A stretch of 64,000 nt of DNA from Accumulibacter sp. GTDB lineage: Bacteria; Pseudomonadota; Gammaproteobacteria; Burkholderiales; Rhodocyclaceae. Position numbers and translations under genes: made by a program. The stretch lies in the NCBI GenBank assembly GCA_024235695.1, contig JACKLX010000001.1, positions 62,001 through 126,000 on the forward strand, given 5' to 3'. The notes under the pieces are model-generated. The model was not told the origin of the DNA. It saw only the letters and a list, made by a program, of their open reading frames with translations, and did not search any database. Below are positions 7,092-63,721 of this stretch, in pieces; position 1 is the stretch's first letter; each line of letters opens with the position of its first letter.

Positions 7092-7537
7092 GCCAGTGTC
7101 GGCAAGCTTGCCAGTCCGTCCGCGCGCAGATCGTAGAAGACCCACATCGGCACGTCCCGCGACCGCCACTCGTCGATCACTGCGGCGATGACTTCGTTGA
7201 GGGTCCGGAAGGCGGCCGGATTCTCGGCCGCCAGGGTCTCGGCCCGCGACACGATCACGACGTAGCCCGGCGCCTCGTGCCAGGAAAAGTCGCTCAGGCA
7301 ATCCTTCAGCGCGTCGTAGTTCTGGCCATACCACCTCGGCAGGTCGAGATCGTGACCCAACTTGGCGAGTACCTCGTCGATCCGATCGGCGTCGCCGAGA
7401 CCCACCTCGAACACGGCAAAGCCGGCGGCGGCGGCGGCCGCCTTCAATGCCGCCTGGCCGCTGAGCGGCAGATGGTAGATGCCGGCATAGCGCGGATTCT
7501 CGAGCAGGCGCTGCAGGGGGGGGAGACTGATGGCCAT
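7088..7537 (-). CDS. Barstar-family ribonuclease inhibitor
   Basis: A 149-residue cytosolic protein with the barstar fold. The key segment LPRWYGQNYDALKDCLSDF matches the inhibitor helix that plugs the RNase active site. No signal peptide is present. The ATG at 7537 is preferred over an upstream TTG at 7543. The gene lies directly downstream of a secreted RNase of the barnase/Sa type and overlaps nudB by 4 nt. It presumably protects the cell from that RNase before export. Confidence 0.9.
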   Translation of the reverse strand: MAISLPPLQRLLENPRYAGIYHLPLSGQAALKAAAAAAGFAVFEVGLGDADRIDEVLAKLGHDLDLPRWYGQNYDALKDCLSDFSWHEAPGYVVIVSRAETLAAENPAAFRTLNEVIAAVIDEWRSRDVPMWVFYDLRADGLASLPTLA

Positions 7538-7543
7538 TGGCAA

Positions 7544-7966
7544 CTATTCACGAATCCGGCGAAAACTGCGGTAGTGATCGGCAGTATAGTAGTACTCGCC
7601 GGAGCGAGCGACGTCGCCGCCGCTGCCCTGGCCGGCGATGATACGCCTGGCGCCGCGGTCGCGGCTGCCCGGCGTCGGCACCGTATACTCCCGATAATAG
7701 CCGCGGGTGCGCACCGGCAGGCGCCTTTCGAAGTTGCCGAAAATGCTGCCATCCTTGTGCGGATAGGGGAATGGTCCGCCCTGCCGGATCAGGCGCAGCA
7801 CCTGCGCAACCTCCGCTGGCAGCTCGGCCAGGGTGACGGTCGGCAAGCTCTGGACTTCTCTTGCCTGACTGCCGGCGCCACCGAGAGCGAGCAATCCAGA
7901 CCATCCCAGGCAGGCAACCAGCGCCGCGAGCGCCAGCCGTCTGAACAGCCCGGCCAAAGGCGACAT
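7544..7966 (-). CDS. Secreted guanyl-specific ribonuclease (RNase Sa/barnase family)
   Basis: The 140-residue protein has an N-terminal signal or anchor helix (LALAALVACLGWSGLLALGG), then the microbial RNase N1/T1 fold: GGPFPYPHKDGSIFGNFERR, GYYREYTVPTPGSRDRGARR and YYTADHYRSFRRIRE. The expected catalytic residues are present: Glu in REYTV, Arg in GARR and His in DHYRSF. It cleaves RNA after guanosine outside the cytoplasm. It starts 7 nt past the aspS stop and is followed by its likely inhibitor. Confidence 0.9.
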   Translation of the reverse strand: MSPLAGLFRRLALAALVACLGWSGLLALGGAGSQAREVQSLPTVTLAELPAEVAQVLRLIRQGGPFPYPHKDGSIFGNFERRLPVRTRGYYREYTVPTPGSRDRGARRIIAGQGSGGDVARSGEYYYTADHYRSFRRIRE

Positions 7967-7972
7967 GATCGA

Positions 7973-9775
<1,803 letters not shown>

Positions 9776-9801
9776 GAATTTCCCGGTTATGTTGCGGTTT
9801 G

Positions 9802-10452
9802 TCAGGTGCTGCGGCCGTTTTCCGTGCCGCCGTCCGCGACGGTGGTGGCCACCGCTCGGGATCTGATCGGTGGCGCCACGACGCCCATCGAGATGACGTA
9901 CTTCAGTGCCGTATCGACGCTCATGTCGAGCTCGATCACGTCGCCTTTCGGCACCATCAGAAAAAATCCGGAAGTCGGGTTTGGCGTCGTCGGCACATAG
10001 ACACTGACGTAATCGCCATCGAGGTGTCGAACCACGTCGCCGCCCGGCTTGCCGGTGAGGAAGGCAATCGTCCACACCCCGCGACGCGGGTACTCGATCA
10101 GCAGCGCCTTGCGAAAAGCGTTGCCCGACGACGAGAAAAGCGTGTCGGAAACCTGTTTGACGCTGTTGTAGATCGAGTTGACGACCGGAATACGCGCCAG
10201 CAGCAGTTCCCACCAGGAGACCAGACGCTGGCCGATGAAATTGGCAGCCAGCAGACCGGTAAGCATGATGATCAGCAGCGTCAGGATCGCGCCAGCACCG
10301 GGAATGTCGAAGCCGAGGATCGTCCGCGGGTGGATGGCTGCCGGCAGCAGGTGCAGGGACTGATCCATGGTGCCGACGATCAGCACCAGCACCCAGGCAG
10401 TGATCGCCAGCGGCACCCAGATCAGCAGCCCGGTGATGAAATAGCGCTTCAT
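9802..10452 (-). CDS. DUF502 family membrane protein
   Basis: This 216-residue protein starts [20 protein letters not shown] and has two or three N-terminal membrane helices. The conserved DUF502 core is [19 protein letters not shown] and [11 protein letters not shown], followed by [16 protein letters not shown]. The ATG overlaps the fmdB stop by one base. The family is widely found beside aspS and fmdB in betaproteobacteria. Its biochemical role is unknown. Confidence 0.88.
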
Positions 10453-10796
10453 CAGCTGCCGGCGCCAGCACCGGCGGTGCTGCTCGGCTTGCTGCTGTCG
10501 CCGGCAGTGGCGCTGGTGGGGGCGCTGGTCGTGGCGCTGCTGGTGGCACTGTCGCCGACAGGTGCTTTTTCGGCGCTCTCGGGTTTGGCGGCGGCACTCG
10601 GCGGCGCCTTGTTGCCACCCTTGAAGTCGGTCACGTACCAGCCGCTGCCCTTCAACTGGAAGCCGGCCGCGGTAAGCTGCTTGTGATAGCTGTGCTGACC
10701 GCACTGCGGACAAACCGACAATACCGGGTCGCTGAGTTTTTGCAGATGGTCTTTATCGAAGCCGCAGGAAGCGCAACGATAGGCATAAATCGGCAT
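10452..10796 (-). CDS. FmdB-type zinc-ribbon protein
   Basis: This 114-residue protein has an N-terminal zinc ribbon, [20 protein letters not shown] followed by CPQCG, making the four-Cys site of the FmdB family of putative regulatory proteins. The region from about residue 60 is a low-complexity Ala/Ser/Thr/Pro tail. It overlaps the downstream DUF502 gene by one base. Regulatory function is assumed for the family rather than shown. Confidence 0.88.
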
Positions 10797-10903
10797 GGCT
10801 AACCCTCGGGAAGCGCGGAAGAGCGTGGATTATACTCGAACCCGGCGATGGTCCACCCGCCCCGCCGCAGCCCTGCCGGGCCTCGAACGGCTGCCGTGAC
10901 GGA

Positions 10904-11764
10904 CTACAGCAGGCCGACGTAGGCGCGCGTCAGGGGCTTCCCCCAGAACAGCGCGAGGAAGCCTGCCGCCGCCAGGTAGGGGCCGAAAGGAATCGGCACG
11001 CTGCGGCCGCGTTTGGCGGCGACGATCAGGGTGATGCCGATCACCGCACCGAGCAGCGACGAAAGCAGGATGGTCAGGGGCAGCATCTGCCAGCCCAGCC
11101 AGGCGCCGAGCGCGGCGAGCAGCTTGAAATCGCCGTAGCCCATGCCCTCCTTGCCGGTAGTCAGCTTGAATGCCCAGTAGACCGACCACAGCGAGAGATA
11201 GCCGGTGATCGCGCCGATCACTGCCGACGGCAAGTCGGCAAAGGTCCCGAAGACATTGAACAACAGGCCAGCCCAGAGCAGCGGCAGGGTGATCGAGTCG
11301 GGCAGCAAGTGGCTGTCGAGGTCGATGCCGGTAAGCGCGATCAGGCACCAGATCAGCAACATGGCACCAAGCGCCGCCCAGCCATAGCCGAAATGAAAGG
11401 CCGCGTAGGCGCAGAGCAGGCCACTGCTCGCCTCGACCAGCGGGTAGCGCGGCGAGATCGCTGCCGCACACGCCGAGCAGCGGCCCCGCAGGAACAGCCA
11501 GCTGAACACCGGGACATTCTCGATCGCGCGGATCGCGTGCCCGCACGCCGGGCATCGCGAACCGGGTCTGGCCAGCGACAGCGGCTCACCGAGCGCTGGC
11601 GGCTCGCCGGTCAGTTCGGCACAATGCGCCCGCCAGTCGCGCTCCATCATCTTCGGGAGACGATGGATGACCACGTTGAGAAAGCTGCCGACCAGCAGCC
11701 CGAGGACGCCACTGATGACCGCGAACAAGCCTGGCGGCAGGTCGACCGGGAACACGCCCGGCAT
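10904..11764 (-). CDS. pilD: Type IV prepilin peptidase / N-methyltransferase
   Basis: This 286-residue inner-membrane aspartyl protease cleaves and methylates type IV prepilins. It has the N-terminal methylase region with two CxxC pairs (CPACG and CSACA) and the catalytic aspartates in GIDLDSHLLPD and GMGYGDFK. Several membrane helices follow. The start overlaps the pilC stop by one base, so it is translationally coupled in a pilB-pilC-pilD operon. Confidence 0.95.
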   Translation of the reverse strand: MPGVFPVDLPPGLFAVISGVLGLLVGSFLNVVIHRLPKMMERDWRAHCAELTGEPPALGEPLSLARPGSRCPACGHAIRAIENVPVFSWLFLRGRCSACAAAISPRYPLVEASSGLLCAYAAFHFGYGWAALGAMLLIWCLIALTGIDLDSHLLPDSITLPLLWAGLLFNVFGTFADLPSAVIGAITGYLSLWSVYWAFKLTTGKEGMGYGDFKLLAALGAWLGWQMLPLTILLSSLLGAVIGITLIVAAKRGRSVPIPFGPYLAAAGFLALFWGKPLTRAYVGLL

Positions 11765-48361: not shown

Positions 48362-50545
<2,184 letters not shown>

Positions 50546-50602: not shown

Positions 50603-50975
50603 CAGGCGGCTGGCTACAAGTGAGTTAGGCAACGACTGCTTGACTCACCAAGCCGACCGTCACAGATCCGCCACCCGAACGTGGCCAATGGGCCGCAAGA
50701 AGACTGTCTGATGCCAGTTGTCATGAGGCAGAACTCGGCCAATTGCAGCCGGCCGTCTATCCGCCTGAGCAACCATCTGAACGGCCGCTTGGCTCTGCAA
50801 CCTGCCGGAAAGCCTACGCCAGCAACTCAGCCGAAGCTGCCTAATGATGCCCGATTTGATATAGTCTGCCATCGGCATAATGCCGCCCTTCAGAGCTCCC
50901 TTCCAATTTGCATAATGGCAGGATGTTTCAAATTCTCACACTGTCCCAATAAGAAAACAGATGCAAAAGGGCTTA
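50603..50975. other. Intergenic region between katG and the restriction-modification island
   Basis: About 370 nt. I see no protein with a recognisable domain. The part 50850-50960 is less GC-rich and must hold the hsdM promoter; CATAAT-like elements occur at about 50876 and 50919 but no -35 is convincing. An AAAAGGG at 50964 precedes the hsdM start codons. Confidence 0.45.
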
Positions 50976-50981
50976 ATGCTG

Positions 50982-52534
50982 ATGGCAAGCAATAACGGTA
51001 GAGACAAATCCCTCGAAACCTGGATCTGGGACGCCGCCTGCTCCATCCGAGGGGCCAAGGACGCGCCGAAATACAAGGACTACATCCTCCCCCTCATCTT
51101 CACCAAGCGCCTCTGCGACGTCTTCGACGACGAGCTGAACCGCATCGCCACTGAAGTCGGCTCGCGCAAGAAGGCCTTCCAGCTCGCCAGGGCCGACCAC
51201 AAGCTCGTCCGCTTCTACCTCCCCCTCGTGCCGGACGATCCCGAGCAGCCCGTCTGGTCCGTCATCCGCAAGCTATCCGACAAGATCGGCGAGGGCGTCA
51301 CCACCCACATGCGAGCCATCGCCCGGGAAAACCCGCTCCTGCAGGGCATCATCGACCGCGTCGACTTCAACGCCACCACACACGGCCAGCGCGACCTCGG
51401 CGACGACCGCCTCTCCAACCTCATCGAGGCCGTCAGCACCAAACGCCTCGGGCTCGGCGACGTCGAGGCCGACATCATCGGCAAGAGCTACGAATACCTC
51501 ATCCGCAAGTTCGCCGAGGGCGGCGGCCAGAGCGCCGGTGAGTTCTACACCCCGCCCGAGGTCGGCACCATCATGTCCCGCGTCCTCCAGCCCGAGCCCG
51601 GCATGGAAATCTATGACCCCTGCTGCGGGTCCGGCGGGCTGCTCGTGAAATGTGAGATCGCGATGGAGGAGAAAGCCAGGGGCAAGAATCCGGCGCCCCT
51701 CAAGCTCTACGGTCAGGAATACATCGCCGAGACCTGGGCCATGGCCAACATGAACATGATCATCCACGACATGGAGGGTCAGATCGAGATCGGCGACACC
51801 TTCAACAACCCCAAATTTCGCAGTAGGGCCGGCAAACTTCGCACCTTCGACCGCGTCGTCGCCAATCCCATGTGGAACCAGGACTGGTTCACCGAGGCCG
51901 ACTACGACAACGACGAACTCGACCGCTTCCCCGCCGGGGCCGGCTTCCCCGGCAAATCCTCCGCCGACTGGGGCTGGGTCCAGCACATGCAGGCCAGCCT
52001 CAATGACAAGCGGCCGCGCTGCCGTCGTCCTCGACACCGGCGCGCCGTCCTCGCGCGGATCGGGCAATGCCGGCACCAACAAGGAAAAGACCGTCCGCCA
52101 GTGGTTCGTCGACCACGACCTCATCGAGAGGCGTGCTCTACCTGCCCGAAAACCTCTTCTACAACACCACCGCGCCGGGCATCGTGCCCTGAACAAAGCC
52201 AAGCCAAGGCGCGCAAGGGCAAGGTCTTCTCGTCAGTGCATCCCAGGCCTTCAAAGGGCGACCCAAGAACTTCATCCCGAAGCCGGCATCCAGCGCATCG
52301 CCGACACCCTCATCGGCTGGATCGAAGCGAGGAAAACCAGCCGCATCGTCGACCACGCCGAGCTGAAGAAGAACGACTACAACATCTCCCCAGCCGCTAC
52401 ATCCACACTCAGCGATGCCGAAACCTACCGGCCCATTGCGGAAATCGTCGAGGAACTGGAGGTCATCAGTGCCGAAGCCAGAAACCGACGCGGCCCTGAG
52501 GAAGATCCTCAAACAACTGGGCGTGTCGGCATGA
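50982..52534 (+). pseudogene. hsdM: Type I restriction-modification DNA methyltransferase subunit, 3' half frameshifted
   Basis: The frame is intact to about 52000 and shows the HsdM N-terminal domain (ILPLIFTKRLCDVFDDEL), the SAM motif IYDPCCGSGGLLVKC and the catalytic motif ANPMWNQDW. Beyond that the expected sequence continues in changing frames: [43 protein letters not shown]-like, IADTLIGWIEARKTSRIVDH and ILKQLGVSA before TGA. I count at least six frame switches, several at short runs with one base too few. ATG 50982 is used; 50976 is possible. The stop overlaps rhuM (ATGA). Confidence 0.85.
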
Positions 52535-53547
52535 AAAGAAGCCAGACCACAAGGAAACTTCCTCACGCGTTCCTCCGCGGCGGAACATCACCTTCATCAC
52601 CGCTAAGGGCGAAGGCGGCGTCGAGGCGATCTACGCGGATGAAGACGTCTGGCCCAGCCAGAAAATGATGGTCGTCCTTTATGACGTGGACGTCCGGACG
52701 ATCAACTACCACCTGCAGAAGGCATTCAAGGACAGTGAGTTGAGGAAGAATCAGTTATCCGAAAATTTCGATAACCGCCGCCGACGGCAAAAACTACGAC
52801 ACTGGCCACTACAGCCTGTCTGCCATCATCGCCGTCGGCTGGGCAAGGTCAACTCCGAGCGGGCCGTCCACCGCAAATGGGCGACCACCGTGGTCACGCG
52901 AGTTCACCATCAAGGGCTTCGCGATGGACGACGAACGCCCCGCGCCGGCGGCACCGTCCTGACCAGACAGTATTTCGAGGAACAGCCCAGCGCGTCCGCG
53001 AAATCCGCCTCAGCGAGCGCAAGTTCTACCAGAAGATCACCGACATCTACGCCACCGCCATCGATTACGACCGCAGCGCCACGGCCACCCAGCGCTTCTT
53101 CGCCACCGTGCAGAACAAGCCCACTGGGCCATCCACGGCCACACCGCTGCCGAGGTCATCAGGACCGGCCGATGCCGGGAAAGAGCATATGCCTCACCAC
53201 TACGGAAAGATGCGCCTCTTACGGAAAAAATCCAGAAGTTCGATGTCAGCGTCGCCAAAACTACCTGACCGAACCGGAGATGGCGCAAATCTCCCGCCTC
53301 GTCAACGCCTACCTCGATGTCGCCGAAGACATAGGCGCAGCGGCACATCCCCACGACCATGCAGGACTGGGGAAACACGGCTCAACTGGTTTATCGAAGC
53401 CACCGACCGGGAAATCCTCCAGACGCCGGCAGTCAACCGCCGAACGCCAAAGCCCACGCCGAATCCGAGTTCGAGAAATACCGCATCGTCCAGGATCGCA
53501 TGTTTGTTCCGGATTTCGATGCCCAGGTGCTGGGATGGGCAACGTAA
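52531..53547 (+). pseudogene. RhuM family protein, multiply frameshifted
   Basis: Translated piecewise, it follows the virulence RhuM family that often accompanies type I restriction loci: AKGEGGVEAIYADEDVW, VLYDVDVRTINYHLQKAF, ITAADGKNYDTGHYSL, IKGFAMDDER, IRLSERKFYQKITDIYATAI, TQRFFATVQNK, KNYLTEPEMAQISRLVNAYL and KAHAESEFEKYRIVQDRMFV. At least eight frame changes separate these blocks. Starts ATG 52531 inside the hsdM stop; the end is set at the TAA after VLGWAT. RhuM function is not established. Confidence 0.75.
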
Positions 53548-53577
53548 GGAGGCGCGGAATGACTGGAAGATTTTTTC

Positions 53578-53650
53578 AACCGCAGATTTCGCAGATGACC
53601 GCAGATGTTCTGAATGGCTTTATCTGCGCCAATCTGCGCAATCTGCGGTT
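53578..53650. repeat. GCAGAT-type imperfect inverted repeat
   Basis: AACCGCAGAT at 53578 pairs with ATCTGCGGTT at 53641, and each arm holds further copies of GCAGAT/ATCTGC. The whole folds as a long hairpin between rhuM and hsdS. Elements with this ATCTGCG pattern occur between genes in many bacteria; it may be a mobile or regulatory repeat. Confidence 0.7.
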
Positions 53651-53687
53651 AAACATGGCCTGAAGGAGATTCTGAGAAGATCGGGGT

Positions 53688-54928
53688 ATGAGCGAGTGGC
53701 AGAAAATCACTGTTGGCGCAGGTCGCCTTGATTCCTCATAGCGGTGGAACGCCATCGACATCGCGGGCTGATTGGGAAGGCGAGATCCTTGGATCACGAG
53801 TAAATGTCGGCGACAACTTGAGCTCACAACCGGAGAGAAATTCGTCTCCGAAGAAGCGCGGTCAAGAGACTGCACCAAGATTGTCCTAAAAAGACAGCAT
53901 CATCTTCGCAACGCGGGTTGGCGTCGGCAAAAGTCGGTATCAACCGGATTGACTCGCTATCAACCAAGACCTCGCAGGCGTCCTGATCGACAACGAGCGC
54001 TACGACATCAAGTTTCTCGCATACCAATTGGGGGATCGACCGGATTCAGCAATACGTCGCGGATGAACAACAGCGCGGTGCGACGATCAAAGGAATCACG
54101 CGAGACTGGTCTCGAACAGACTCGGCTCAACCTCCCCCGACCCCCGAGCAGGAAAGATCGCGCACATCCTTTCGACGGTGCAGCGGGCGATGGAAGCGCA
54201 GGAGGATCATTCAGTCCACCACTGAGCTGAAAGGCCCTCATGCATGCTTCTTCACCGAAGGCCTCCGCAACGGAACCCCAAAAACAAACCGGAATCGGCC
54301 CCTGTCCCTGAAAGCTGGGCGTGTGGAGATAGTGACTGGCAAATGCATTACTGGCTCCATACCGAAAACTTAGTATTGACTCGTTCTACGACCCACCCAT
54401 TGAAGAAGACTTCATAGCCCTGCCGACCTCGGAGCATCGTCGCTATTGCCGATGATTCGGAGAAAAAGATTCCCGAGGGTAAGGGCCACCATCCGGCTAA
54501 TTCCAAGAACGCAGTAATGTGCGTCTGTATCGGATCAAGCATTGGCAAGGTGGGCATGAGCTACCGAGGAATGCTGGCAACGAATCAACAAATCAATTCG
54601 ATCATTTGCAAGAAAGACAGAGATCCTGGAGTCGCCCTGCTACCTCCTGAGCTACCACATGGGAATACTGGAAGAGCTTTTGCGACATTTGGCCTCAATA
54701 CCAATCCTAAGCAAAGCGCGTTTCACATCAATCGTCGTCGCACCCATCGTCGATTGAAGAACAGCAAGCCATAGCCAAGCCGCTTGTTGCGCTCGCTGAA
54801 TCAAAAATCGAAATTGCCGAGAAGAAGGTCGCACATATTTCAAGGCCTTTTCGCACCTCCTACACGAACTGATGATCGCGAAGAAGTGCGTGAATCGCCC
54901 AGGCCTCAATACTGGATCAAAGCCATGA
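53688..54928 (+). pseudogene. hsdS: Type I restriction specificity subunit, multiply frameshifted
   Basis: About 410 codons once joined. The start reads MSEWQKITVG. Then, in changing frames, come IPHSGGTPSTSRADYWEGEI, NVGDNLSSQ, GEKFVSEEA, IFATRVGVGKVGIN, AGVLIDNERYDIKFLAY, GATIKGITRDW, a central PPTPEQERIAHILSTVQRAM-like helix, a second recognition domain (GSSIGKVGMSYRGMLATNQQ) and a C-terminal helix ending LLHELMIAKKCVNR. This is the two-TRD design of HsdS. More than ten frame breaks occur. The stop overlaps the trlF start by 4 nt. Confidence 0.8.
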
Positions 54929-57743
54929 GCAGACGCGGTGCAGAATTCTCGAAAGACCGATATTCAAGTCCACTCGCCCCGAGATGGGTTGATGGGGCAA
55001 GCACCAGAGGATGTATCGGCTGGTGACGCCACGGTTGAGGATCGGAAAACTGGTGAGAGAAAAATATTGCAAAGAGTTCATCGAAAAATGCATCGAGAAA
55101 GGATTGTCAGCAGTTTCGATAACAGATCACCACGAGGGCGTTTATGTCTATGAGGCGTTGCGAGTTCTGGAAAAATGCGGGAGACAGATCCAAAGCCCTT
55201 GATTTCTGGCTCTTCCCTCGCATGGAGCTGACTTCGCATATTCTGCCAAGCATTGATCATATTCGATGGAAATCTGCCCGAAAGTCTTTCGAGAAAACTC
55301 GATCTAAGCTAGGCCTACTAACCAACGTTCGACCTGAAGAGAAACAGGAATCCAAGTCGAATTACTATATTCCACAACATAGAAGAGTTAACAGGGTCTA
55401 TTGATAGCGATGATGAACTGCGAGGCCGGATTTATCATCCTGCCTCATAAAACCGTCCGGATGGACACAAAAACGGTCTTGAGGAAAGGTTTTCAAAAAA
55501 CGCTTCAAAGACATGCCGATGTCGGGGGGCTACATGGACAAGACCCGTCCGGATGACCTTTGATATAGGTAATCGTAGAATCTTGGACGCAGAGACCGCA
55601 TGGGCCCGGAAAAGCGGGTGTTGTGTCATGCTCGGATGCTCGCTACGCTGATTTTCGATTGATCGGCGATGGCTTACTTCTGGACTGCGATGGCATCACC
55701 CACGGCTGAATCCTTCGCCAGGCGATGCTGGCACCAGATTCGCGGATCTGACATTCTGAGCCTACATTTCTACCTGAGGCTGTCAAGTAATGTTTCGGTC
55801 AAAGGATCAAAGTATCTCGCTGACGGAACCTACGCGTTCAATCAGCAATGAACTCGATCATCGGAGGTCGGGCTGGCAAATCCACCCTTTCTGAGTATGT
55901 CCTGAGCATGTCCGTTTCGCGCTGGGCTGTTCGGCACTGATGACACTGGGGACTCGCAAACGACCGCGACACAGCGGCTCAAAGAAATCTCGAAGGAACG
56001 CTTTTCTGACGCCGGGACGATGGCGAAATTTCATTGAATGTTTTGCTGAAATGGCGCTTCGATCACACTTACGCGCTCGGTAGCGAAGGCAAGATGTCAC
56101 TTCTGTCGAAACCGATGGTACGGTAAACCTTAGTTCCGTTTCTCGACGTGCGAAGCTCATTCCCACTCAGCAGTATCGGCAGGGGGAACTGTCTGATCTT
56201 GCGAGAGGTGATGCCGAAGGTCGGCTCCTGCATCTCGTGACTGCTGCCCCTGCATCACACCAGTTGAGTGAGATTTCGAGTCCAACCAGCGTAATGCACA
56301 GTCTTCAGCCGAGGCCCTGTCGAAGGCAGTGAGACTCTCGGCAGCAATAAACATGCACAAGTTCATGCAAGACGCAGCAGAAGCTACTGGTTCTCAAATT
56401 GAGAAATCGGTACAGCCATCTTCCGACGGTCAGGGCACTACCCCAGATCACAGATCATGAGAAGTCTGGTCCGCCAAGAGGTAATTTCAGCGTCTCGCAG
56501 AGTCCTGAGCGCAACTCGGAAAAATTGATAGCGCTCTCTATCCGAACTCGATTTCAGAATCCAACAATGCCGACTGGTCAGCCGATCTTTCCCGGAGAAG
56601 GTAGCTTTAGAGAGGCATTTGAATCAATAAATCTGCGACCTTGGCCTGACGGCACGCTACACGCAATCACCCCGACTACCACGTCATGGTTCAAGTCCGA
56701 ATTAATAAAATCGCTTTGGCTGACGGAATGGCTCCCCAACAGCGCAGCCCATGAAAAGGAATACACAGAGCAGAAAAACTCCCTCGCAGGGCAAACAATC
56801 GATTCTGGAAAGCATTGAACGTCTACGTCGACAGCAAGGCGATGTTTTGTAAGCAATTGGAAGTTGCAGGTGTGGAGGTAACTGAATTACGCAATGCTGA
56901 CCCGAGTTGACCGTCAACAGGAACAGAGAACTGCCTCTAGAAGCGCAACTATCGGCGGTTGTTGAAACCAGATAGCAACAATCGAAGCGGCATCTTCAGA
57001 GTTGGCGTACGGACGTTTGGCAGAAGATCCAACTTCACATGCAGAGATCGAGGCGGCGTCAGCAGGCATTTGACTTGCCGCACTCCGGGGTTCCTGCATT
57101 GGAAAGAACTTGAAAAGGTTCAGGATGAGCAGAGAAATCAGCGAAGCGGGAAGGAGATTCAGATGAGTCTTTCAATTGCTAAAGTGGAAGCGAAGGTGCT
57201 CCTTGAGAAAAGGCGATGCCTTCTAACCCTGATTTTGAGTGAAGCTCTGGTCCAGAGTTTATAGAGCGCTTTTCTGAAGGAGGCAATTTCCACCTCGAAT
57301 GAGTATCGGTTTCATTGGTGGGCAATCCTTCGCCTTCGCGTCGAGGTCTTTCGATATTCGTGGAAGGGGAATCCTTTATTGAATTCAGGAAGGCTTTCAG
57401 GGTGAGCAAGCAGCAGCGACACTTGAATACATCTCTATGAATCAGACCTGCTGGCTCCACTCATCATCGATCAGCCAGAGGAGGATCTCGATAACAAGAT
57501 CATCATAATGAGATCATTGGCTAAACGATTCGAACTGCGAAAGACAGAAGGCAACTTATCCTCGCGACACATAATGCGAATATCGCAGTCAATGGTGACT
57601 CGGAAAACGTGATTGAAATGGTGTTGGGCCGGCAGGTCGCAGGCGGAGCCATTGATGAGGAATCGGTCTGCAACGCAATCACCAATACGATGGAAGGCGG
57701 TAAAGACGCATTCGAGCTACGGCGCAGGAAATACAACTTTTAG
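54925..57743 (+). pseudogene. TrlF-family AAA-like ATPase (PHP + ABC ATPase), shattered frame
   Basis: About 940 codons if joined. Recognisable blocks: a PHP-like start (DIQVHSPRDGL, FIEKCIEKGLSAVSITDHHE), a Walker A region (NSIIGGRAGKST, likely GGRGAGKST), CSQ-like helical coiled coil, and the ABC C terminus with LIIDQPEEDLDNKII, LILATHNANIAVNGDSE and AGGAIDEESVCNAITNTMEG ending in RRRKYNF. Frames change every 50-150 nt, mostly by one base. GC is clearly lower than around it. TrlF proteins commonly sit in type I restriction loci; their role is unproven. It is followed by hsdR after 9 nt. Confidence 0.75.
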
Positions 57744-57752
57744 AATTCAACT

Positions 57753-58013
57753 ATGCCCACCCCCGGAGAACACAAAACCGTCCAAGCCCGAATCCTCGGC
57801 TATGCCGAGGCCATCGGTTGGACGATTGTGTCCCGCGAGGAAGCTGAGCGGCGGCGCGGGTTTGATCCGGACGTACCGCCCACCGACCGCGCCAGGCACC
57901 GTTCGCTCTTCTTCGACGATCTGCTCGACGCCAAGCTGCGCGAATTCAACCCGCGCTACCTTGATGCCGAGGGCGCGTTGCTCGGGCAGTTCCGCCATCT
58001 CCACACCGACATC
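57753..58013. repeat. Diverged direct repeat of the hsdR 5' end (partner at 59584-59840)
   Basis: The two segments, 261 and 257 nt, align along their whole length at roughly 85-90 percent identity by eye. The second copy lacks four bases net. They flank the fic gene in the same orientation. Confidence 0.9.
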
Positions 58014-58163
58014 GACCTTCAGCCTCGTCTTCGCGGCTGCTTGAGTCGTGCACCGCAGCGTGGGCGAATTGGCGACGAAAAGCTCGGTTATGCGACGCCA
58101 AAAGGGGTTTCGCGTCAATCAGATTGTTTTTTTGTCGCATATGACATTTTTAGCGACATATAA
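57753..58163 (+). pseudogene. 5' fragment of a type I restriction subunit (first hsdR copy)
   Basis: Residues 1-87 match the HsdR N terminus in one uninterrupted frame: TVQARILGYAEAIGWTIVSR, REEAERRRGFDPD, SLFFDDLLDAKLREFNPRYL, GALLGQFRHLHTDI. After 58013 similarity stops and a 49-residue unrelated tail runs to a stop. It begins 9 nt after trlF, the place of a normal hsdR. The rest of this copy is missing and replaced by the fic gene and a second hsdR. Confidence 0.85.
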
Positions 58164-58164
58164 T
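58088..58164 (+). promoter_or_regulatory. Probable fic promoter with repeated GCGAC motifs
   Basis: A perfect TATAAT at 58159-58164 ends 7 nt before the fic ATG (58172), so the mRNA would have almost no leader. Around it are TATGCGACG (58088), TGTCGCATAT (58133, inverted) and TAGCGACATA (58151): three copies of a (T)GCGAC motif, two forming an inverted repeat over the -35 to -10 region. This could be an autoregulatory operator. Confidence 0.5.
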
Positions 58165-58171
58165 CGGGCGC

Positions 58172-59569
58172 ATGCCGAAGCGTATCCCCGAACCGGAGCT
58201 TGACGCCATCCTGGCGGTCGTGGCGGCCCATCCACAGGGCGTGCAGGTCAGCGCTGTCCGCGAGGGACTGCCATACGCGCTGCCGCCGCGGATGCTGCAG
58301 CGTCGCCTCGCCCTGCTGGTCGAACAGAAGCGGCTGGTCGCCGAAGGGCGGGGCAAGGGTCGTCGTTATCGCGCACCCGCCGTCATCACCCGTTCAGGAA
58401 ATTTGATAGCGGGCAACGCGGCGGTCGAAGCGCGGGCAGAGGTATACGTTCCTGTCTCTGCCGCAGCGCAAGACATCAGACAAGCCGTTCGCGCGCCGAT
58501 CCAGAAGCGGCGGCCGGTCGGCTACCAGCGCGCGTTTCTGGATGACTACCGACCCAACGTCACTTATTACCTGCCGGCGGAAACGCGCCAGCGCCTGCTC
58601 GACATGGGTCGCCCTGCGGATGGCGGGCGCCCGGCGGGAACCTATGCCCGCACCATCTACAGCCGCCTGCTGATCGAACTCTCCTGGAACTCCAGTCGTC
58701 TGGAAGGCAATACCTATTCATTGCTGGAGACCGAGCGTTTGCTCGAACTCGGCGAGGCCGCCGAGGGCAAGGACGCGCTGGAAGCGCAGATGATTCTGAA
58801 CCACAAGGCCGCGATCGAGATGCTCGTCGATCAGGCGGACGAAATCGGCTTCAACCGTTACACCATCTTGAATCTCCACGCCCTGCTGTCGGACAACCTG
58901 CTCGTCGACCCGCAGGCAGGCGGTCGGCTGCGGCGCATCCCGGTGGCTATCGACGGCACGGTCTACCATCCGCTGGAGGTGCCACAGCTCATCGTCGAGT
59001 GCTTCGAGGCAATCCTCGATACCGCGGCCGCAATTAACGATCCCTTCGAGCAGGCCTTCTTTGTGCTCGTGCACCTTGCGTACCTGCAGTGTTTCGAGGA
59101 TGTGAACAAGCGCGTATCCCGGCTTGCGGCGAACATCCCGTTGATCCGCGGAAACCTCTGCCCCCTGTCTTTCGTGGATGTCCCGGAGCGTGCCTATATT
59201 GATGGCGTGCTGGGTATCTATGAGCTGAATCGCGTCGAGCTCCTGCGCGACGTGTTCGTCTGGGCGTACGAGCGCTCCAGCGCGCGCTACTCGGCAGTGC
59301 GCCAGTCGCTGGGTCAGCCGGACCCGTTCCGTATGCGTTACCGACCGCTGATCGCCGAGCTGGTCGCGATGGTGGTTCGGGAGGGTATGGACAAGAGAGC
59401 CGCGACCGCATTGGTGCGCCAACGTGCGGCGGAGCAGGTACCGCCCGAGGATCAGGCGCGATTTGTCGAGGTCGTGGAGACGGAGATCATGAGCCTCCAT
59501 GAGGGCAACATCGCGCGCTACCGCCTGCGGCCGGCTGAATACCATACCTGGCGGCAAGGCTGGCGTTGA
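58172..59569 (+). CDS. Fic-family protein with N-terminal winged helix and variant Fic motif
   Basis: This 465-residue protein begins with a winged-helix-like segment (residues 1-65), then a Fic domain. The class II inhibitory motif SSRLEGN lies at 174-180. The Fic motif is at about 306-317: QCFEDVNKRVSR instead of HPFxxGNGRxxR. The catalytic His is replaced by Gln, while the Asp/Asn/Arg framework remains. NLCPLSFVDVPERAYIDGVL follows. A related motif occurs in a common Fic subfamily. AMPylation is therefore uncertain. The gene is intact and lies between two hsdR 5' ends. Confidence 0.9.
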   Translation: MPKRIPEPELDAILAVVAAHPQGVQVSAVREGLPYALPPRMLQRRLALLVEQKRLVAEGRGKGRRYRAPAVITRSGNLIAGNAAVEARAEVYVPVSAAAQDIRQAVRAPIQKRRPVGYQRAFLDDYRPNVTYYLPAETRQRLLDMGRPADGGRPAGTYARTIYSRLLIELSWNSSRLEGNTYSLLETERLLELGEAAEGKDALEAQMILNHKAAIEMLVDQADEIGFNRYTILNLHALLSDNLLVDPQAGGRLRRIPVAIDGTVYHPLEVPQLIVECFEAILDTAAAINDPFEQAFFVLVHLAYLQCFEDVNKRVSRLAANIPLIRGNLCPLSFVDVPERAYIDGVLGIYELNRVELLRDVFVWAYERSSARYSAVRQSLGQPDPFRMRYRPLIAELVAMVVREGMDKRAATALVRQRAAEQVPPEDQARFVEVVETEIMSLHEGNIARYRLRPAEYHTWRQGWR

Positions 59570-59583
59570 CGGGGATCAAGAGC

Positions 59584-62494
59584 ATGCCCACCCCGGAGAA
59601 CACAAAACCGTCCAGGCCCGGATCCTCGCCTACGCCGAGGCCATCGGCTGGACATTTGTCTCCCGCGAGGAAGCCGAGCAGCGGCGCGGGTTTGATCCGG
59701 ATGCCGCCGGCCGACCGCGCGAGGAACCGATCACTTTTCTTCGACGATCTGCTCGACGCCAGGCTGCGGGAATTAACCCGCGCTACGCGGAAGGCCCGGG
59801 CGCGTTGCTCGGGCAGTTCCGGCATCTGCACACCGACATCTACGGCAACCGCGAATTCGTCGAGCACCTGCGCAACCGTGGCAAGTTCTTCGACCACGAG
59901 GAGAAGCGCGAGCGTGACCTGATCCTGATCGATTATGACGATCCGGCGCGCAACGTTTTCGAGGTCACCGAGGAGTGGGCCTTTCACAACGGCCACTATG
60001 GCACGCGGGAGGATGTCGTCTTTCTCATCAACGGCATCCCGGTGCTGGTGATCGAGTGCAAGAACGCCAACAAGGACGAGGCGATTGCCCTGGGGGTGGA
60101 CCAGATCCGCCGTTACCACCGCGAGACGCCGGAGCTGTTCGTCTCGCAGCAGCTTTTCACCGCCACCGACGCCATCGGCTTTTCCTACGGGTGAGCTGGA
60201 ACACGGCGCGGCGGAACATCTTCAACTGGAAGGATGGGGAGGTTGGCAAGCTGGAGGCCAAGGTGAAGAGCTTCTGTGCCATTGGGCAGGTGCTCGCTTT
60301 CCTGAAGGACTACATCGTCTTTGGCGAGAAGGACGAGGAGCTGAACAAATACATCCTGCGCCAGCACCAGACCGGCGCAGTGGAGGCGACCGTCAGCCGT
60401 GCCCTCGATCCCGGCGCACGCGCGGCCTCGTCTGGCACACCCAGGGCAGCGGCAAGACCTTCACCATGATCAAGGCGGCGGAGCGGCTCTTCCGCGCGCC
60501 CGAGGCGGACAAGCCGACCGTGCTGTTGATGATCGACCGCAACGAGCTGGAAGACCAGATGCTCAAGAACCTCGCCGCGCTGGGCCTGGGCAACCTGGAG
60601 CACGCCAGTAGCATCGCCCGGCTCAACCAACTGCTGAGGACGACTACCGGGGCATCATCGTGACGATGATCCACAAGTTCCGCGACATGCCGGCGAACCT
60701 GAACACGCGCGCGAACATCTACGTCCTGATCGATGAAGCCCACCGCACCACCGGTGGTGACCTCGGCAACTTCCTCATGGCCGGCCTGCCGAACGCGACC
60801 TACCTCGGCTTCACCGGCACGCCGAGGACAAGACCGTCCACGGCAAGGGCACCTTCAAGACCTTCGGCTGCGAGGACGGCAAGGGCTACCTGCACAAGTA
60901 TTCCATCGCCGACAGCATCGAGGACGGCACCACGTTGCCGCTCTACTACCAGCTCGCGCCCAACGAAATGCTCGTCCCGCACGAGACGCTGGACAAGGAG
61001 TTCCTCTCGCTGGCCGAAGCCGAAGGTGGCTGACATCGAGGAGCTGAACAAGATCCTCGATCGGGCGAGAACCTGAAGAACTTCCTCAAGGGCAAGGAGC
61101 GCATCCAGCAGGTGGCGCAGTTCGTCGCCGAACACTACCGCCAGAACGTCGAGCCGCTCGGCTACAAGGCCTTCCTCGTCGGCGTCGACCGCGAGGCCTG
61201 CGCCCATTACAAACACGCGCTCGATCAGTTTCTGCCGCCGGAGTATTCCGAGGTCGTCTATACCGGCAGCAACAACGACTCCAAGCTGTTGAAGGAATTC
61301 CACCTCGACCCGAAGAAGGAGCGGCAGATTCGCAAGAGCTTCGGCAAGCTCGATCAGCAGCCCAAGATCCTCATCGTCACCGAGAAACTGCTCACCGGCT
61401 TCGATGCACCGGTGCTCTACGCCATGTATCTCGACAAGCCGATGCGCGACCACACCCTGCTGCAGGCCATCGCGCGGGTGAACCGCCCCTACGAGAACGA
61501 GGCGCAGGAGATGGTGAAGCCCCACGGTTTCGTCCTCGATTTCGTCGGCATCTTCGACAAGCTGGAAAAGGCGCTGGCCTTCGACAGCGACGAGATCAAC
61601 GCCATCGTCAAGGACCTCAAGCTGCTGAAGGTGCTCTTCAAAAACAAGATGGAGTCCAGGGCCCCGGACACCCTCGGCCTGATCGAGCAGCAATTCAATG
61701 ACAAGGACGTGGACACCCTCATCGAGCACTTCCGCGACCCCGAGCGGCGCAAGGAGTTCTTCAAGGAATACAAGGAGATCGAGATGCTCTACGAGATCAT
61801 CTCGCCCGATGCTTTCCTGCGCCCGTTCATTGACGACTATGGAACGCTATCGGCGATCTATCAGGTCGTCAGGAAGGCCTACACCAGGACCGTGATGGTC
61901 GACCGTGAGTTTCAGGCCAAGACCAACCATCTGGTACAGCAGCAGGTCGGCAGTTATGGTGTGGGCGGTCTGGGCGAGATTGTCGCGATCGATGGCAATA
62001 CCCTTGAGCTGATCAAGAACAAGAGCGGTGGGGATGGCACCAAAGTCATCAACCTGATCAAGAGCATCGAGAAACTGGCCGAGGAAGGCAGCGATGACCC
62101 GTACCTCATCGCCATGGCGGAGCGGGCCAGGGCGGTGCAGGAGAGTTTCGAGCAACGCCAGACCAGCACCGCCGAGGCGCTGGAGGCATTGCTCAAGGAA
62201 GTCGCAACGAACGAGGTCCGCAAAAAGGAGCAGGCCGAGAAATCATTCGATGGGCTGACCTACTTCGTCTATCGCAGCCTGCTCGACGCGAAGATCGAGA
62301 ACGCGGAAGCTGTGAGCCGGAAGATCCGCCAGGCATTCGCCGATTTTCCGAACTGGAAGCGCAGCGAAAACGCCCTCCGCGAACTCCGAAAGAAAGTGAC
62401 CTTCGCGATCTTCGCCGAAACGGACGACCTGGATCGCGTGACAGCGATGGTGAACGAGCTGTTCACCTTGCTGGACAAGGCAGATCGGATTTGA
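59584..62494 (+). pseudogene. hsdR: Type I restriction enzyme subunit R, 5' half frameshifted
   Basis: The expected 950-residue chain is readable: TVQARILAYAEAIGWTFVSR; nuclease motif VLVIECKNANKDEAI; Walker A WHTQGSGKTFTMIK; DEAH box [19 protein letters not shown]; then an intact part from 61112 (LLTGFDAPVLYAMYLDKPMR) to the end. At least nine frame switches occur between 59590 and 61080, about one per 165 nt, and none after that. HsdR cleaves and translocates DNA; as sequenced it cannot be made full length. The first frameshift is a C run one base shorter than in the 57753 copy. Confidence 0.9.
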
Positions 62495-62498
62495 AGCG

Positions 62499-62834
62499 AT
62501 GACCGCGACCGATCAAAAACACCAGTTCAAGCAACGCGTCCGTCATTGGGCCGAGAAGTTGAACGCGCAAGTTGTCTGGTTGGGCGTGCGCCCGATGCGC
62601 AACAAATGGGCCTCATGCACTACCAGCGGCCATCTGAACTTTAATGACGAACTGCTCGGCCTGAAACCCGAGCTATGGGATTACGTCATCGTCCACGAGC
62701 TTCTCCACTTCTTTGTTCCGAACCATGGAAGACTGTGGAAAAGCCTGATGCGCGCCCACCTGGGTGAGTATGAGTCATCTGAAAGCGAGCTAAAGAGAGT
62801 AGCGCACAACACTTCGCTACAGCGGGCGCGCTGA
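62499..62834 (+). CDS. YgjP-like (DUF45/M48) metal-dependent hydrolase
   Basis: A 111-residue protein with the zinc protease-like motif VHELLHFFVPNHGRLWKSLM (HExxH variant: HELLH) and the preceding NKWASCTTSGHLNFNDEL. This small domain commonly follows hsdR in type I loci. It starts 4 nt after hsdR. Its substrate is unknown, and the frame is intact. Confidence 0.88.
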   Translation: MTATDQKHQFKQRVRHWAEKLNAQVVWLGVRPMRNKWASCTTSGHLNFNDELLGLKPELWDYVIVHELLHFFVPNHGRLWKSLMRAHLGEYESSESELKRVAHNTSLQRAR

Positions 62835-63244: not shown

Positions 63245-63721
63245 TCAGGTCGATTGGCCTGGTAGCGGCAGCGCCGTCCGATCGACCACCCGCCGCAGGA
63301 CGAAGCTCGAATGCACGCCGGTCACGCCCGCTATGCGGGTGATGCGGTCGAGCAGCAGTTCCTGGTAGGCGTCCATGTCCCTGACCACCACCTTGAGCTG
63401 GTAGTCGGCGTCCTGGCCGGTGATCAGCAGGCATTCGAGCAGCTCGGGGATTTCGGCGATGGCGGCGTCGAAGCTGGTGAAACGCTCGGGCGTGTGCCGG
63501 TCCATCGAGATATGGATCAGCGCCATCAGCGACAGGCCGAGCTTCTTGGCGTCGAGCAGCGCGCGGTAGCCGGTGATCAGCCCGGCTTCTTCGAGCGCGC
63601 GTACGCGGCGCAGGCAGGGCGAAGGCGAGAGGCCGATGCGGTCGGCGAGGTCCTGGTTGCTGATCCGGCCGTCCTGCTGCAGGACGTGCAGGATCTGCGA
63701 GTCGTAGCGATCAAGCTGCAT
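63245..63721 (-). CDS. Lrp/AsnC-family transcriptional regulator
   Basis: A 158-residue protein with an N-terminal helix-turn-helix (DGRISNQDLADRIGLSPSPC) and a C-terminal RAM ligand domain (LECLLITGQDADYQLKVVVR). It divergently faces the leuA start with a 15-bp palindrome between them, so it may regulate itself or leucine synthesis. The effector is unknown. Confidence 0.92.
   Translation of the reverse strand: MQLDRYDSQILHVLQQDGRISNQDLADRIGLSPSPCLRRVRALEEAGLITGYRALLDAKKLGLSLMALIHISMDRHTPERFTSFDAAIAEIPELLECLLITGQDADYQLKVVVRDMDAYQELLLDRITRIAGVTGVHSSFVLRRVVDRTALPLPGQST

Follow-up and report, generated by a model that had tools for sequence, protein, structure and literature searches.

We analysed a window of 64,000 nucleotides, the whole stretch of DNA examined here, from a 3.83-Mb genome that is assembled into 32 contigs. 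All genes of the locus under study lie on the + strand, in the order hsdM-rhuM-hsdS-trlF-[hsdR piece]-fic-hsdR-ygjP. Its features are listed below; loci in other genomes are designated by L and a number.

50982..52534, + strand: hsdM, open to about 52034 and frame-broken beyond (PF02384/PF12161; alignment to the intact hsdM of L022 and L134)
52531..53590 (end approximate), + strand: rhuM, frames broken (PF13310 in pieces; DNA match to L022 and L134)
53688..54928 (bounds approximate), + strand: hsdS, frames broken (HsdS of relatives; DNA blocks)
54925..57743, + strand: trlF-family gene (PHP and AAA-like ATPase), frames broken (NF045780 on two pieces; PF02811 weak)
57753..58016, + strand: relic of the 5′ end of hsdR, about 88 codons (nhmmer E 6e-75)
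58067..58171, + strand: likely fic promoter (GCGAC/GTCGC sites spaced in steps of about 20 bases; TATAAT just upstream of the ATG)
58172..59569, + strand: fic-domain gene, 465 aa, intact (PF02661)
59583..62494, + strand: hsdR, frame breaks at about 59.6-61.0 kb, C-terminal part open (TIGR00348)
62499..62834, + strand: ygjP-like metallopeptidase gene (PF01863)

The genes named in the preliminary description were all recovered, HsdM, RhuM, TrlF, Fic, HsdR and YgjP by profile search, run on separate pieces where genes are broken, and HsdS by similarity of pieces. The profile matches were PF02384 (E 7e-52) and PF12161 (E 3e-18) for HsdM at 50961-52034, PF02661 (E 1.5e-8) for Fic at 58172-59569, TIGR00348 (E 1e-39) for the C-terminal part of HsdR and PF01863 (E 6e-25) for the YgjP-like protein. 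Two RhuM pieces matched PF13310 (E 4e-7 and 3e-4, both under the gathering score); at the DNA level rhuM is about 90% identical to the intact rhuM of L022 and L134, whose product matches PF13310 and PDC-S05. The pieces of the TrlF-family gene, which has broken frames and a G+C content of 0.51, below that of the window at large, matched NF045780 at 57525-57743 (E 3e-29, 102 bits) and 54993-55199 (E 2e-6, 27 bits), scores that stay below the cut-off of 350 bits for every piece. Each HsdS piece resembled HsdS in 1-2 of 80 related loci, and DNA blocks at 54132-54319 matched L020 and L134. HsdM, HsdS and HsdR genes thus lie together as in a type I restriction-modification (R-M) system, with broken frames in the window copy. 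The tight gene junctions described earlier were also found: hsdM and rhuM overlap in ATGA at 52531-52534, with the same 4-base overlap in the intact relative L022, an ATGA at 54925-54928 fits an overlap of hsdS and trlF, and 9 bases separate the trlF stop (57743) from the next ATG (57753). An inverted repeat with 32-base arms, 84% complementary, occupies 53575-53653 within the rhuM-hsdS gap. The locus is preceded by an intact catalase-peroxidase-like ORF (48371-50545) and followed on the minus strand by an ORF resembling an Lrp/AsnC regulator (63245-63721), both named by eye. A plasmid search gave a single 48-base match, and none for HsdR at E 1e-60.

Between 54 and 58 kb no frame is open for 200 codons, in contrast to most of the window. 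Gap densities were taken from blastn, because global alignment overcounts gaps (it placed 18 in fic, which is open in both genomes). Against L022, blastn gave 38 gaps over hsdM-rhuM (2711 bases, about one per 70 bases) and none in 1572 bases at 61263-62834; against L020 it gave 18 over fic-hsdR-ygjP, which is collinear with the window over 4644 bases at 84% DNA identity. Mismatches to L022 on codon positions 1, 2 and 3 numbered 13, 18 and 66 in hsdM (third position 66/97) and 15, 12 and 34 in rhuM (34/61), and 216 of the 309 mismatches between hsdR and that of L020 fell on third positions. Since the substitution pattern still resembles that of functional genes, the frame breaks are more likely to be mostly consensus error than decay. 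We accordingly regard as improbable the alternative that the locus in its entirety is inactive and in decay. Frame breaks do run across rhuM, hsdS, trlF and the 5′ half of hsdR, and real decay is seen in relatives, namely a transposase inside the trlF of L134 and the loss of hsdS to mid-hsdR in L022; but the third-codon excess in hsdM and rhuM, together with the patchy distribution of the gaps, is the pattern of consensus error.

Relatives of the locus were collected by HsdR, for which 135 were confirmed and the best 80 taken. The ygjP gene directly follows hsdR in 79 of the 80 loci, and the remaining one (L080) stops at a contig end. RhuM pieces b and c matched in 8/80, Fic in 5/80 (one weak) and TrlF in 0/80. 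The exact gene order, considered as a fixed system, was therefore absent from these 80 best of the 135 confirmed relatives, since no TrlF piece matched any of them, while single modules do recur in the same slots. TrlF beside type I genes is likewise rare in our sample, as HsdR adjoins it in 1 of 30 TrlF loci with short flanks (wider view L135) and hsdM, hsdS and hsdR surround it in 1 of 14 further loci (L166).

The cargo between hsdS and hsdR varied across relatives and included Gabija, SIR2-HerA, Thoeris, HipA, Fic and others. Individual slots held HTH and HipA (L009), SIR2 and HerA (L007), DUF2326 and an ABC-3C domain protein (L004), GmrSD (L024), UvrD/GajB and GajA (L021), YhcG/DUF1016 (L046), a DEAD helicase (L040), SIR2-STALD and ThsB (L036), Fic (L023), AAA_14-DUF4143 and AAA_13 (L065), subtilase/IetS (L047), SIR2 (L008) or deaminase-HATPase (L038), with NB-ARC, DUF4435 and others at other loci. 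In L013 and L016 hsdS lies immediately 5′ of hsdR. PADLOC recognized HerA, GajA, GajB, ThsB, IetS and PD-T7-3 among the slot genes, and Drt1a in L063. It further assigned slot genes to PDC candidates, which reportedly stem from a 2024 preprint by Payne et al.: DUF4143 to PDC-S01, YhcG to PDC-S02, Fic to PDC-S04 and RhuM to PDC-S05. Several slot proteins had no match in these searches (L028, L062, L017). The arrangement would best be explained by a type I R-M operon that ends in a conserved hsdR-ygjP pair and offers two places for additional defence genes. As a separate observation, L033, L054, L062 and L064 have HsdR ORFs of 1233-1371 aa, where extra in-frame sequence interrupts the match to HsdR at about residue 218-227.

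Because the slots of RhuM, TrlF and Fic are occupied in relatives by genes of known or candidate defence function, a multi-part defence locus appears the best reading of the RhuM/TrlF/Fic/type I R-M order. This part of the preliminary description is favoured; its suggestion of an undescribed system is not supported, as similar R-M operons were described in 2013 and 2025, and the locus is of a known kind. A 2013 proposal saw multilevel defence in R-M operons that contain PrrC-like together with RhuM-like or Fic/Doc-like genes (PMC3710099); these operons share with the window R-M, RhuM or Fic/Doc and a large ATPase protein in one operon, whereas the window ATPase is of the TrlF family rather than PrrC, and RhuM and Fic are both present. 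The RptR-RMS-DarTG2-M48 (RRDM) island of enteropathogenic E. coli, was described in 2025: hsdS and hsdR flank DarTG2, hsdR is followed by an M48 metallopeptidase gene, and an AAA-like ATPase pair occupies the hsdS-hsdR site in four genomes, a site viewed as a potential recombination hotspot (PMC12255303). Common to both are type I R-M, cargo in the hsdS-hsdR slot and, downstream of hsdR, a metallopeptidase gene (PF01863 in the window; matched by position); unlike RRDM, the window slot lacks DarTG2 and holds trlF and fic, rhuM lies between hsdM and hsdS, and an hsdR relic separates the cargo modules. In EcoprrI, the anticodon nuclease PrrC is held latent by the type I R-M complex and released on T4 infection (PMC3874165). 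The shared trait is a type I R-M operon with an effector gene inside it, while the R-M hold is described for PrrC and would be conjecture for TrlF, RhuM and Fic. The RloC nuclease of A. baylyi is reported not to be controlled by R-M (PMC3874168), which argues against a general guard rule. The TRL operon trlR-trlF-trlG of Photorhabdus shares the TrlF family with the window; its temperature phenotype was mapped to trlG, no role being shown for trlF in that report, which also presents a plasmid with R-M subunit M genes among the trl genes (PMC7554251). The PDC series, matched in PADLOC by the DUF4143, YhcG, Fic and RhuM genes of the slots, is described as found by guilt-by-embedding (PMC12988326). 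That type I R-M operons can harbour defence genes is known.

Two hsdR genes had been described at the locus. The one at 59583 is a real hsdR; the short one at 57753-58016 is, judged by its sequence, a relic and not a second restriction gene, being a 5′ fragment with blocks that share 86-91% identity with the beginning of the gene at 59583. Relics of this kind recur among the relatives. With a nucleotide model, pieces of hsdR bases 1-480 were found in 21 of 67 slots, as against 0/67 for each of five other 480-base hsdR segments. Consistent results were obtained by tblastn, where HsdR residues 1-160 matched 16 of 65 upstream regions and the other five segments 2, 0, 0, 1 and 0. End fragments of hsdS or hsdM were found in 1, 1, 0 and 0 of 45 slots, compared with 11/45 for the hsdR start. 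All relics lie on the coding strand, and 18 of the 21 begin within hsdR bases 1-8 (exceptions L010, L034 and L081), usually a few bases past the preceding stop, as hsdR does elsewhere (9 bases in the window, 5 in L020 and L134, 4 in L023). Their 3′ ends are scattered from hsdR base 41 to 324, and the fixed boundary of a site-specific cassette array was thus not found. The L081 match (hsdR bases 391-436, far from the cargo) is doubtful, and L033 was scored as having no relic, though its own hsdR is matched by a piece at the beginning of the contig. In L078 two relics are present, the first followed by a YhcG gene and the second by HTH-HipA. Among newly searched slots, L187 has a relic ahead of the same fic, L181 and L185 have none, and L184 begins at a contig end. 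We also considered an HsdR N-terminal piece serving as a docking tag fused to the cargo, and rejected it, as the relic frames mostly end in short ORFs separate from the cargo.

These features bear on two further explanations. Some integrative elements restore the gene they break, and a site-specific mobile element carrying a copy of the hsdR 5′ end could have done so here. It would account for relics that begin at the hsdR start on one strand, and for the collinear fic-hsdR-ygjP of L020; against it stand the wide spread of the relic ends and the widely differing types of cargo, no integrase came up incidentally, and we give it little credence. Still harder to sustain, and in our estimate very improbable, is the retention of the hsdR 5′ pieces for a function, for instance as a short protein titrating HsdM/HsdS or as a leader uncoupling translation before a toxin. 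The frame of the window relic is indeed open for 136 codons, and its mismatches to the hsdR of L006 number 7, 2 and 14 by codon position, but relic frames and lengths vary, and several relics (L020, L068, L134) carry inner deletions or gaps.

The ancestry of the relics was evaluated for 18 relics of 17 slots, compared with 71 hsdR starts; with L187 added to the 21, 22 slots have relics, of which L009, L046, L047, L070 and L081 were left out. A foreign hsdR was nearer than the locus' own in 13 of the 18, window included, L032 gave a tie, and four (L034, L038, L049, L065) were nearest to their own. Bootstrap values of at least 0.97 were obtained for 7 of the 13, namely the window (1.00), L023, L037, L063, L068 and both L078 relics. 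As the 'nearest foreign' sequence is the best of up to 70, and the bootstrap is set against that one pick, rank is the safer measure; the own hsdR ranked 17 of 71 for the window, 49 of 71 for L037, and 50 and 52 of 71 for the L078 relics. The window relic is nearest to the hsdR of L006 (distance 0.087) and lies at 0.138 from its own, a value that would be raised by any consensus errors in the real hsdR of the window. For 11 relics, mismatches to the nearest foreign hsdR amounted to 68, 61 and 156 on codon positions 1, 2 and 3, and this concentration on position 3 indicates that the relics diverged mostly as coding sequence. The greater nearness of foreign hsdR genes points to cargo stacking by recombination between diverged hsd loci.

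Alternatively, fic may have entered at the hsdR start, with the 5′ end copied from the same gene and decaying later. Such local duplication may account for the four relics nearest to their own hsdR, as well as L047 and L070, in which a short repeat lies directly before hsdR with no gene between. The low ranks of the own hsdR in the window, L078 and L037 speak against it, and the third-codon bias of mismatches to foreign hsdR is unlike the decay of a dead copy; overall we consider it unlikely. One result counts against recombination between diverged loci, the reading we prefer. If cargo moved together with hsdR 5′ ends, their sequence should bear its mark, but no such signal emerged among 37 labelled loci with 48 same-cargo pairs (first eighth versus last half, p 0.58). 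HsdR sequence followed cargo type at neither end, with no segment at p < 0.05, and co-transfer of cargo and hsdR 5′ end was thus not seen at the protein level.

The nearest gene order was found within the same genus, at L134 of the complete genome G010, which reads hsdM-GxxExxY gene-rhuM-hsdS-trlF-hsdR relic-hsdR-ygjP and has no fic. Its hsdS is split by an insertion and its TrlF gene by an IS1182 transposase, and its relic has an inner deletion and is followed by a spacer. The first part of this TrlF scores 420.7 bits on NF045780 (cut-off 350), and blastn gave no DNA match between it and the TrlF gene of the window. In this spacer, upstream portions of the promoter that precedes fic in L020 are retained, so that fic was probably lost in L134. 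At L022 (locus positions 7209-11594; JEMX01000012.1, Ca. Accumulibacter appositus, by inference), hsdM and rhuM are kept, and hsdS, the cargo and the front of hsdR are lost.

Relics were also found in another type I family, sampled at 20 loci, where HsdR residues 1-160 matched upstream in 6 and the other segments in 4, 4, 2, 2 and 0. Four of the 20 have relics (L192, L198, L199, L207); L191 and L204 were rejected as relic loci, their hsdR genes being split by insertions. The relic of L192 stands before an AlbA_2-HATPase gene, that of L198, which is short (E 2e-5), before a HATPase gene, and that of L207 before RhuM-Fic by profile, as likewise in L199 by reading. In L199 (6065-9210) three relics occur in one operon, with an M78 peptidase-DUF4411 pair (toxin-antitoxin-like) between the first two.

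The Fic protein of the window was compared with its orthologues. The FIC motif, HxFx(D/E)GNGR, contains the catalytic His. At this site the five Fic orthologues read QxFEDVNKR, with Gln at the position of the catalytic His in 5/5, and an alignment to PDB entries sets this Gln against the His of FICD, so that the catalytic His expected of an AMP transferase is absent. Autoinhibited Fic proteins carry the inhibitory motif (S/T)xxxE(G/N), which is matched by SSRLEGN in 5/5 orthologues. Upstream of fic, the window and four other orthologues share a TATAAT beside the ATG, and GCGAC/GTCGC sites spaced in steps of about 20 bases, with 2-3 GCGACA/TGTCGC sites per upstream region against a background of 0.14 per 150 bases. 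Motifs and upstream sites together suggest a self-regulated protein without AMP transfer. The segment 58067-58171 is likely to be fic's own promoter, and the closeness of TATAAT to the ATG hints at a leaderless message.

Taken together, we think it probable that this type I R-M operon has two cargo slots and that its relic was left by the joining of an hsdS-trlF-hsdR locus with a fic-hsdR locus; the cargo may serve as back-up. The first slot would be that of rhuM, between hsdM and hsdS; the second, between hsdS and hsdR, would hold a series of two modules, first trlF, which is coupled to the operon, then fic under its own promoter. Joining of the two loci would have placed the 88-codon hsdR fragment between these modules, with one junction formed via homology (in hsdR, or upstream in hsdM/hsdS) and the other a chance joint within codons 1-88 of one hsdR, so that the product retained one whole hsdR and the 5′ piece of the other. 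The type of recombination and the donor locus are what we infer. A type I R-M enzyme cuts unmodified phage DNA, and by analogy with their families TrlF, RhuM and Fic may provide back-up or abortive defence when phages escape or block R-M. What is new is the recurring hsdR 5′ scar, of which no description was found in the literature searched by titles and abstract openings (bioRxiv outside its scope), and which would explain how cargo is stacked and not merely swapped. Relics would then provide a readable scar of acquisition. For annotation, a short 'hsdR' ahead of cargo should be taken as a warning of a relic, and may be used to find embedded modules.

The relics also part two sorts of cargo, operon-joined modules without a scar and solo modules by hsdR with one. 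A relic was present in 16 of the 21 slots with a solo, toxin-like module adjoining hsdR (15/21 without the doubtful L081 match), compared with 4 of 45 others (L047, L068, L069, L070; Fisher p 8e-8), where the class, comprising HipA, Fic, YhcG, AAA_14-DUF4143 or deaminase-HATPase beside hsdR, was drawn after the relics had been seen. L134 was set aside from this count, and the 45 include 7 slots without a gene within 330 bases and 3 with HsdS/HsdM next to hsdR. It is about an even chance, in our judgement, that the 5′ end of hsdR is a gateway by which solo, toxin-like modules enter type I R-M operons. Such modules would arrive beside a fresh hsdR start and leave a truncated one, repeatably, and the order in which modules were acquired would be readable from the relics (window, L078, L199), with no fewer than two type I families involved. 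Counting against the joining model, four loci have fic without a relic (L024, L025, L074, L185).

Two minor observations concern the immediate surroundings of relics. In L046 the YhcG ORF starts inside the relic, and in L023 and L187 minus-strand ORFs of 329-458 aa lie between the relic and the fic-type gene.
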